From NCBI GenBank assembly GCA_016195275.1, contig JACPZZ010000011.1:1-42237 (forward strand): DNA of 42,237 bases, read 5' to 3'. The notes beneath the pieces are model-generated. The model made no database searches and was not told where the DNA came from. It saw only the letters and a program-made list of their open reading frames with translations. Positions within the stretch are counted from its first letter, which is position 1. Each line of letters begins with the position of its first letter. Of this stretch, positions 95 through 22,986 are shown piece after piece. This DNA comes from Candidatus Aenigmatarchaeota archaeon. GTDB lineage: Archaea > Aenigmatarchaeota > Aenigmatarchaeia > JACPZZ01. The position numbers were made by a program, and so were the translations under genes.

Positions 95-118
95 ATCTAC
101 TGATTGAAATCAGTAGAT
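95..118. terminator. Perfect 10-bp hairpin atctactgat-tgaa-atcagtagat, possible terminator
   Basis: Perfect palindrome in an intergenic region just downstream of the minus-strand ORF ending at 125. Confidence 0.45.
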
Positions 119-15004: not shown

Positions 15005-15157
15005 ATGCCTAGAAAAGCTTCTGTTGATGACGTGCCTGCGATAAAATCGCTGATCGATTATTGGGCCGCTGAAGGCGAAGTGCTGCCGAGAAGCGTGGAT
15101 GAAATAACCGGGCATGTCGCGGATTCTGGCGGAGATACGCAGCGTGTGTGTGGGTGA
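15005..15157 (+). pseudogene. N-terminal fragment of a GNAT acetyltransferase (N-acetylglutamate synthase-like)
   Basis: MPRKASVDDVPAIKSLIDYWAAEGEVLPRSVDEITGHVADSGGDTQRVCG* matches the N-terminus of archaeal NAGS-like GNATs. Confidence 0.7.
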
Positions 15158-15510
15158 CCTCCTCCCACCCATGAATGGCGTGGGCTTCCTTAACAGAGTC
15201 ACAGACTCCAATACGGAAGCGTCAGGTTATCTGTTCGCTGACAGATTTTAGGGCTATTAGAAAACCTTTGGTTTTCTAATTGAGAAAATCTAACGATTTT
15301 CTCAACGGTCACAATTATTGCTTGAACCATGTCGATTCATGGTCAGCCCGTTCCCAAAACGTATAATCTTGGGAAAATATTAGGTCGCAAACCTGTTGTT
15401 GCTGTTGGTAACATGAAAAAAGAAATATTTAAATACGAGGGTTTACAGCATTCCGATACGGTTCGCTTTCATCCCACTCCTCAAGGATGTGGGTTTTCCC
15501 GTTCACACGT
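15155..15510 (+). mobile_element. Putative non-autonomous IS200/IS605-type element splitting the GNAT gene
   Basis: Two subterminal hairpins of identical architecture (CCCAC...GTGGG with one 3'-side bulged nt) at 15164-15184 and 15473-15493; no transposase inside. Confidence 0.55.
15257..15305 (+). repeat. Tandem perfect hairpin pair
   Basis: ttagaaaacc-ttt-ggttttctaa directly followed by ttgagaaaatc-taac-gattttctcaa. Confidence 0.85.
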
Positions 15511-15777
15511 GATAAAGATTACCAGGGCAGGGGAATAGGAAAAAAGATGGTAGAAACTGAAATACAGGAAGCCGGAGAAAGGGGGTTAACCAGAGTCTTT
15601 GTTCTCACAAGGAAACCGGATTATTTTTCAAAGTTTGGTTTTGGCAAAGGTCCTGTTATAGAACAGAAAATATACAAAGACTGTATAGCATGCCCGAAAT
15701 ACGGAAACGGGTGCGATGAGATCTATATATGCAAAACTGTCCCAAATGCAACGGCAGTCTTAGCAGGGGTCCTGTGA
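15511..15777 (+). pseudogene. C-terminal fragment of the same GNAT acetyltransferase
   Basis: DKDYQGRGIGKKMVETEIQEAGERGLTRVFVLTRKPDYFSKFGF...KIYKDCIACPKYGNGCDEI. Confidence 0.75.
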
Positions 15778-22059: not shown

Positions 22060-22509
22060 TTATCGCTTGCTTCTCTGTTCGTGGCGGCGAGAACCGCGTC
22101 TCGATGCGCTCCCTGCGTGATGCGTTTCGTTCCTTCTTGGATCAATTACGAGAAGGTTTCTGTCGTAATCCATGAAACGCTGTTTTATTTCTTTTGTGCC
22201 TGCCTGCGCCAGACAACGGGCTATTGACTGGCGAACAGCTTCTGTCTGGCCGGAATAACCGCCGCCTTTTACCGAAACGCTGAAGTCAAAATCTTTGGAT
22301 AACTCCGACGCGATCATGATCGGCTCCTGTATCCGCATCCTCGAGAACTCCGTCCCCCAGATGCTGAGCGGCATTGAGTTAATTTTAACTCCGCCCCCGC
22401 CCGGCGTCATTGTTGCGCGTGCAACAGAGTCTTTCCTCTTTCCGAAATTGTGTATGGTTTTGACTTTCTTTTTCGGTTTCTGCTCCTTTGCACTGTTTTC
22501 GTCGGCCAT
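22060..22509 (-). CDS. rps9: Ribosomal protein uS9
   Basis: HNFGKRKDSVARATMTPGGGGVKINSMPL...KGGGYSGQTEAVRQSIARCL. Confidence 0.93.
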   Translation of the reverse strand: MADENSAKEQKPKKKVKTIHNFGKRKDSVARATMTPGGGGVKINSMPLSIWGTEFSRMRIQEPIMIASELSKDFDFSVSVKGGGYSGQTEAVRQSIARCLAQAGTKEIKQRFMDYDRNLLVIDPRRNETHHAGSASRRGSRRHEQRSKR

Positions 22510-22525
22510 TGATAATCACTTAACA

Positions 22526-22573
22526 GCGAAAATCCGTTGATTTTCGCGTGTAGGAAACTAAAAGTTTCCTACA
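22526..22573 (-). repeat. Tandem perfect hairpin pair in the rpl13-rps9 junction
   Basis: Minus strand: tgtaggaaact-ttt-agtttcctaca, then gcgaaaatc-aacg-gattttcgc. Confidence 0.85.
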
Positions 22574-22986
22574 ACGGGTTTTCTTCCCAGCTTTTTCGAA
22601 AGGTCATGCAGCGTGATGTGCTCGCTGGTCAGGCTGGATACGGTCTTCGTGTTCATTTCATCAACCTTTCCTCCAAACTCTTTAGGCGTTCCCACGAAAA
22701 CCTTGAGCCTTCGCAGGGCTTCGCGGCCGGAAGATTTTTTGTACGGTAACATCCCTCTAACCGTTCTTTTCATCATGCGGTCCGGCAGTCTGGAAACGAA
22801 AGGCCCCTTGTGTTTGTCGCCCCTGTCCAGGCGAACTTTATATAAACTGGTGATAGAAGCGAGGGATCCGGATATCACAGCCTTTTCAGCGTTGATTATG
22901 GAAACTTCCTCGCCGTTCAAAAGCATTTTAGCTACGGACGACGCCAACCGACCGCAAACCTTCCCCGTAGCATCTATGACCTTCAT
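22558..22986 (-). CDS. rpl13: Ribosomal protein uL13
   Basis: MKVIDATGKVCGRLASSVAKMLLNGEEVSIINAEKAVISG...RTVRGMLPYKKSSGREALRRLKVFVG. Confidence 0.93.
   Translation of the reverse strand: MKVIDATGKVCGRLASSVAKMLLNGEEVSIINAEKAVISGSLASITSLYKVRLDRGDKHKGPFVSRLPDRMMKRTVRGMLPYKKSSGREALRRLKVFVGTPKEFGGKVDEMNTKTVSSLTSEHITLHDLSKKLGRKPVVGNF

Follow-up and report, generated by a model that had tools for sequence, protein, structure and literature searches.

The window (the whole 42,237-nt stretch of DNA analysed) contained two copies of a family of double-hairpin elements (DHEs) of about 50 nt, which are very probably mobile elements. The two copies represented two subfamilies, DHE-1 and DHE-2, and belong to one DHE superfamily. 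The mobility of the DHEs was visible in orthologous sites that were filled in one genome and exactly empty in a relative, and the mobilising mechanism may be the insertion of a folded single strand. The genome (G000; 1.07 Mb, 34 contigs, 83% complete) was examined as one of five congeneric MAGs of Aenigmatarchaeota (G000–G004), with completeness values of 71–91%. Copies were counted at E ≤ 1e-5 by using R1, a covariance model built from 11 DHE copies, including the DHE-1 of the window (22524–22573) as one of the seeds. The features of the two window sites were as follows.

15148..15505 (approximate ends), + strand: host of DHE-2, about 350 bp, with IS605-type left-end and right-end hairpins; the ends recur genome-wide, and the boundaries were set by eye
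15256..15280, + strand: hairpin A of DHE-2, ATTAGAAAACC-ttt-GGTTTTCTAAT, perfect 11-bp stem
15280..15305, + strand: hairpin B of DHE-2, TTGAGAAAATC-taac-GATTTTCTCAA, perfect 11-bp stem
22060..22509, − strand: rps9 (ribosomal protein S9), the next gene downstream of rpl13; PF00380, E 6e-29
22524..22573, − strand: whole DHE-1, TGTAGG...CGCTG, 50 bp, inserted at the 3′ end of rpl13; R1 71.0 bits, E 4e-15
22526..22547, − strand: hairpin B of DHE-1, GCGAAAATC-aacg-GATTTTCGC, 9 bp
22549..22573, − strand: hairpin A of DHE-1, TGTAGGAAACT-ttt-AGTTTCCTACA, 11 bp
22558..22986, − strand: rpl13 (ribosomal protein L13); PF00572, E 3e-20

The tandem perfect hairpins described in the initial annotation at 15256–15305 (+) and 22573–22526 (−) were real to within a base and far beyond chance. 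The gapless join reported there held at 15256–15305, where hairpins A and B abut with one T in common, so that 11+10 or 10+11 bp can form together, but not at 22573–22526, where a single C separates the two hairpins. The predicted RNA folds had energies of −21.7 kcal/mol (z = −7.4) at 15256–15305 and −23.9 kcal/mol (z = −8.9) at 22573–22526, and no dinucleotide shuffle of either site folded equally well. Thirteen perfect hairpins with a stem of at least 9 bp were listed in the window versus 0.6 in shuffled sequence, nested alternatives being counted separately. A 370-kb genome sample contained 83 such hairpins (one per centre) versus 13 after shuffling, an excess of about six-fold, and its 18 tandem hairpin pairs mostly shared one consensus. 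The whole DHE-2 was detected by R1 with a score of 40.1 bits (E 4e-7 for the genome), and copies identical to its hairpin A were located at G000:C8:10470 and C15:38446. The host of DHE-2 at 15148..15505 is probably a MITE. By eye, a GNAT acetyltransferase-like coding region at 15006–15740 of the window was apparently split by this IS605-type element, and IS605-type right ends recurred widely in G000.

The DHEs were 47–51 bp in size and were composed of hairpin A (about 11 bp), usually a C, hairpin B (9–10 bp), and TG. The main consensus was CAYAGGAAATC-loop-GATTTCCTRTG, C, RCGAAAATC-loop-GATTTTCGY, TG. The DHE-2 subfamily, ATTAGAAAACC.. followed by TGAGAAAAYN.., was still picked up by R1 at 40 bits. 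The scan of the genome and its relatives with the covariance model gave copies in all five congeners, 29 in G000 and 12, 16, 15, and 22 in the other four. With 156 genomes of the phylum searched, matches outside the genus reached the threshold in only four genomes, and all of them were weaker. Three of the four were inspected (G112, G059, and G029), and their elements shared the same plan with different sequences, as in the G059 example TACAAGGTGAAGC-aaa-GCTTCACCTGTA followed by CAGGAGAATC-aaa-GATTCTCCTTG. From a reading of these matches, we take the elements to be related or convergent double-hairpin families.

In 62 distinct copies, 98.0% of the pair cells formed a pair, a value that leans upward because the alignment was fitted to the structure, although double changes are not created thereby. 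Two-sided changes were found at 15 of the 20 pairs, in both helices, and the double-change cells numbered 208 versus a shuffled mean of 49. When the partners were moved by 1–3 columns as a slid control, pairing dropped to 33–53%. G000 and G003 both carried a copy at one site upstream of a gene starting like nucleoside diphosphate kinase; there, a stem A-T pair in one genome was a T-A pair in the other, and the loops differed. The structured, covarying repeat that had been proposed from the two window sites was thus borne out. Of the conserved architecture claimed with it, the stems and the layout held, whereas the loop sequence was variable across the family.

Three insertions were resolved exactly by comparison between congeners. 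The sites G004:C7:44737 (50 bp) and G000:C2:24725 (47 bp) were filled and exactly empty in G003, and the site G004:C1:27667 (48 bp) was filled and exactly empty in G000. At all three, the flanks of the filled site summed to the empty site, and therefore no target-site duplication was present. The rpl13–rps9 site, filled in the window at 22524–22573, was empty in three relatives, L043 (contig JACQNZ010000008), L044, and L045, the spacers of which were too diverged for a base count. The palindrome GAAGCATATCGTATACTGTATCGATATGCTTC was uninterrupted in C8 and held DHE-2 at C15:66290, between GTA and TAC. Nesting took several forms: copies interrupted hairpin B of another copy between ACGA and AAAC in several places, a copy missing from G004 lay inside hairpin A at G003:C6:1095, and DHE-2 was nested in DHE-1 at C24:4858. 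Further copies occupied the loop of IS605-type left-end hairpins (C15:9778, C22:13968, C11:37016, and C9:2128). The empty rpl13 site in three relatives, together with the nesting, points to gain and not precise loss as the direction of change. Neither an excised form nor a within-species polymorphism was seen among the copies. The small structured repeat in unrelated contexts, possibly a mobile module, that the initial annotation had envisaged was therefore upheld by the many copies, the covariation, and the exact empty sites in relatives.

At 42 of the 51 CA-type sites, the insert had the same base on either side, almost always as A/A or T/T. No fixed target tetranucleotide was found, and the left-flank bases varied among 61 sites. 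When the flanks were joined, a palindrome with a stem of at least 7 bp spanned the junction at 37% of 59 sites, compared with 1.5% for random positions and 3.4% for positions matched in A/T; these values are descriptive and not fully independent, because the same kinds of palindrome recur. No clear palindrome was present at about half of the DHE sites. Where the stem was at least 6 bp, insertion was in the 5′ arm (element read A to B) at 25 of 26 sites, and this fixed arm suggests a reaction with the polarity of one strand.

Other repeats of the genome also formed hairpins. The family GAYNCAYAC-loop-GTRTGNRTC followed by agtcg was located at G000 C2:1006, C5:3599, C16:17827, and C20:6501. The family TGACCTTTT-loop-AAAAGGTCA followed by TCAAAA was located at G000 C2:6898, C15:11844, and C18:2213, and similar hairpins occurred among the DHE targets. 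Five contigs carried the hairpin ATCTACTGAT-tgaa-ATCAGTAGAT close to their start with shared flanks (window 95–118; C2:97, C11:99, C12:99, and C16:95); it is a repeat where the assembly breaks. The 16S rRNA match at L022 760–4093 (G000:C2) spanned 3.3 kb for a 1.48-kb model and had hairpins inside; this gene probably contains large insertions or introns.

The host genes were altered by several of the insertions. DHE-1 entered directly ahead of the stop codon that terminates L13, with no extension, in the relatives, and supplied the last codons of rpl13 and a new stop codon, TAG (22560–22558, within hairpin A). The ORF ends in L153, L163, L141, and L203 suggested the same gene-end pattern, with the TAG near the element start as the stop codon. 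In G004, a DHE added 16 residues in frame to Sua5/YrdC (PF01300) and was exactly missing from the G000 orthologue, and another added 16 residues in frame to an intein of a ribonucleotide reductase. Both orientations relative to the host gene were observed, sense in Sua5 and L13 and antisense in the intein. The ribonucleotide reductase of G000 (L031 4232–10333, C11) contained three intein-splicing stretches, and that of G004 (L215 4212–9095, C1) had apparently one intein fewer.

Interrupted tRNAs were not recovered by the first tRNA search, and three were obtained by ARAGORN with the intron option. The DHE-bearing introns were 88 nt in a Trp tRNA (G002), 102 nt in an Arg tRNA (G004), and 101 nt in a G000 tRNA that was called Leu by ARAGORN and whose anticodon was read here as CGG, Pro. 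The G004 orthologue of the last tRNA contained the intron without the DHE. One tRNA carried its DHE in antisense. In addition, different genes shared a recurring leader, ..tttttggggttctcaaagacct-DHE-ttttactaaaaagggatttga-ATG, in which the DHE preceded the start codon by about 20 nt, at C24:87687, C33:6514, and C6:5116 of G000 and C5:21540, C3:129296, and C3:30669 of G003. These leader copies may reflect insertion that happened repeatedly, an element of compound make-up, or the co-option of a leader. Selfish DNA of about 50 bp can thus lengthen proteins, reset stop codons, and extend tRNA introns in tiny DPANN genomes.

In the mechanism that we propose, one DHE strand would fold as two adjacent hairpins, and a trans-acting, strand-specific enzyme would recognise the folded single strand and insert it without target duplication. 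The usual target would be a palindrome in a folded or single-stranded state, with the element joined between two A/T bases of its 5′ arm. Replication forks are one example of the single-stranded places at which entry would occur. Copies would persist where the damage is smallest, as at the ends or in the 5′ leaders of genes, within tRNA introns or protein loops, and in other mobile elements. In this account, the family with its layout and covariation, the exact insertion free of target duplication, the preference for palindromes, and the fixed arm are observed, and the single-strand intermediate, the link to replication, and the trans-acting enzyme are inferred. The identity of the DHEs as mobile elements combined with this mode of insertion is a reasonably probable account, and the insertion mechanism on its own is advanced tentatively. 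It is conceivable, if doubtful, that the DHEs rank with the smallest mobile units known from Archaea, that their mechanism lies outside the known transposase classes in placing a folded strand of about 50 nt, free of duplication, into the 5′ arm of a palindrome, and that sequence-distinct DHE families exist in several Aenigmatarchaeota families.

No tested transposase, recombinase, or reverse transcriptase was common to all carriers, although such absences weigh little because the MAGs were 71–91% complete. A Y1 transposase was found in G000 (C8:16637) and G004, with no match in G001, G002, and G003. Among the five carriers, reverse transcriptase (PF00078) was found in G002 and G004 only, and serine recombinase in G000 and G002 only. 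TnpB was present in all five congeners and was not detected in G059 or G029. Since TnpB is a nuclease and was undetected in these two genomes, it was unconvincing as the mobiliser. The TnpB-domain (PF07282) matches numbered 19 in G000, versus one strong Y1 match, and 1–4 in the congeners.

A spread mediated by RNA, with a transcript of the double hairpin either ligated into other RNAs or converted to cDNA by reverse transcription and then inserted, appears rather unlikely. Such a route was suggested for the mitochondrial DHEs of Allomyces from the absence of duplications (PMC2800124), and the same argument applies to the duplication-free insertions of the archaeal DHEs. The copies in tRNA introns are also in line with an RNA route. 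The mismatches on the A-to-B strand comprised 22 G.T versus 10 A.C, which is only suggestive of selection at the RNA level because the model itself favours G.U. However, the antisense copies in the ribonucleotide reductase intein and in one tRNA would not be yielded by joining into a sense transcript, so the presence of DHEs in both orientations argues against joining solely at the RNA level. The reverse transcriptase, moreover, was detected in only two of the five carriers.

The Y1 transposase of G000 and G004 invites a REPIN-like transposition, in which both hairpins would be processed in trans by an enzyme of the IS200/RAYT type, as REPs are small palindromes that are moved although they lack coding capacity (PMC3733652, PMC3116915). 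The three DHE carriers without a Y1 match and the lack of an unpaired GTAG or CGTC tag at the hairpin foot make this transposition an unlikely route. The Y1 gene of G000 was adjoined by an IS200/IS605-type hairpin, and no DHE match was present in the 3.3 kb around the gene.

Template switching at stalled forks would need no enzyme, and would copy hairpins between palindromes and keep the stems perfect. It could account for the palindromic targets, for perfect stems beside variable loops, and for the lack of duplication, but not readily for the insertion of whole units, bounded by constant ends (CAYAGG... to ...TTG), at unrelated sites whose homology to the element is a base at most, and we judge it improbable. 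A very improbable reading, already largely refuted for the whole family, takes the hairpins for chance structures or for functional RNA signals or terminators that selection has retained locally: in two species, several copies in the recurring leader preceded start codons by about 20 nt, and others were located at gene ends, but orthologous sites were empty in congeners, copies were found in ORFs, introns, and other repeats and in both orientations, and chance hairpins were rejected by the excess over shuffled sequence and excluded by the pairing and double changes across the 62 copies.

Single copies could nevertheless be co-opted, and individual DHEs may have an RNA function. As the nature of the family, the RNA element, processing signal, or protein-binding site offered by the initial annotation was not supported. 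A mobile repeat at the DNA level fits better than a dedicated RNA signal, because copies occur in either orientation, in frame, in tRNA introns, and nested in one another. The family is a caution that not every conserved hairpin in such genomes is a regulatory RNA. The best matches to Rfam 15 scored 14.6 and 13.2 bits against gathering thresholds of 50 and 47, and none was located at 22450–22650. Viral spread was considered and rejected: of the six contigs retrieved from IMG/VR in a single pattern scan, none matched R1 credibly, the top score being 15 bits. A search of plasmids with the 129-bp conserved stretch around the window copy gave no match.

The DHEs were compared with known small repeats. 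Cyanobacterial small dispersed repeats (SDRs) are also very small, form hairpins, and are nested in other repeats and structured RNA genes, whereas they are single short repeats and bacterial. A classical MITE of a DDE transposase differs in its target-site duplication, which was absent at the exact DHE empty sites. The MITEs derived from IS200/IS605 have subterminal hairpins and no target duplication, and a probable MITE of this kind hosts the DHE-2 of the window at 15256. However, the DHEs lack both IS605 ends, are not tied to a fixed target tetranucleotide, and insert into IS605 end hairpins. The REP/REPIN elements resemble the DHEs as small palindromes of many copies, sometimes paired, in which the structure is kept while the stems vary. 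The DHEs differ in being two self-contained hairpins and not one hairpin or an inverted doublet, and in having the ends CAYAGG and RTTG without a GTAG/CGTC foot tag; GTAG occurs only within the stem of the TGTAGG and CGTAGG copies. A gene for a Y1 transposase, the class to which the RAYT enzymes of REPs belong, was detected in two of the five congeners, the other three MAGs being incomplete.

The Rickettsia palindromic elements (RPEs) share the in-frame insertion of palindromic repeats into unrelated protein genes (PMC10969869). The RPEs measure about 150 bp and terminate on one side in CGTC (PMC3733652), whereas the DHEs are 47–51 bp with two hairpins and no CGTC end. The GC clusters of yeast mitochondria (GC42) are likewise short mobile repeats that form hairpins, have constrained stems, and merge and nest, but they are GC-rich and have a putative target-site duplication (AG) (PMC4478555).

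The closest resemblance was to the mitochondrial DHEs of Allomyces, Schizosaccharomyces octosporus, and S. osmophilus, which are very small non-coding units of two adjacent hairpins, are optional between close relatives, lie in spacers and structured RNA genes, and produce no target duplication (PMC2800124, PMC10085805). Their mobility was argued from optional presence (PMC2800124, PMC10085805). Tandem hairpins, optional presence, and the lack of target duplication were all found in the archaeal DHEs, which differ in residing on an archaeal chromosome and not in an organelle, and in occurring also within tRNA introns and, in frame, within proteins. The archaeal stems are A/T-rich, whereas the DHEs of Schizosaccharomyces are GC-rich, and the likeness is one of layout and behaviour. 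Because REPs, RPEs, and GC clusters each fail a defining feature, the archaeal DHEs are placed with the mitochondrial DHEs as elements that work alike, not as proven members. No double-hairpin mobile element in archaea was found in a literature search of open-licence papers. To our knowledge, the way in which mitochondrial DHEs move has been open since their description in 2000. With their exact empty and filled sites, the five related archaeal genomes allow direct tests of how ends and targets are chosen and of the strand polarity.
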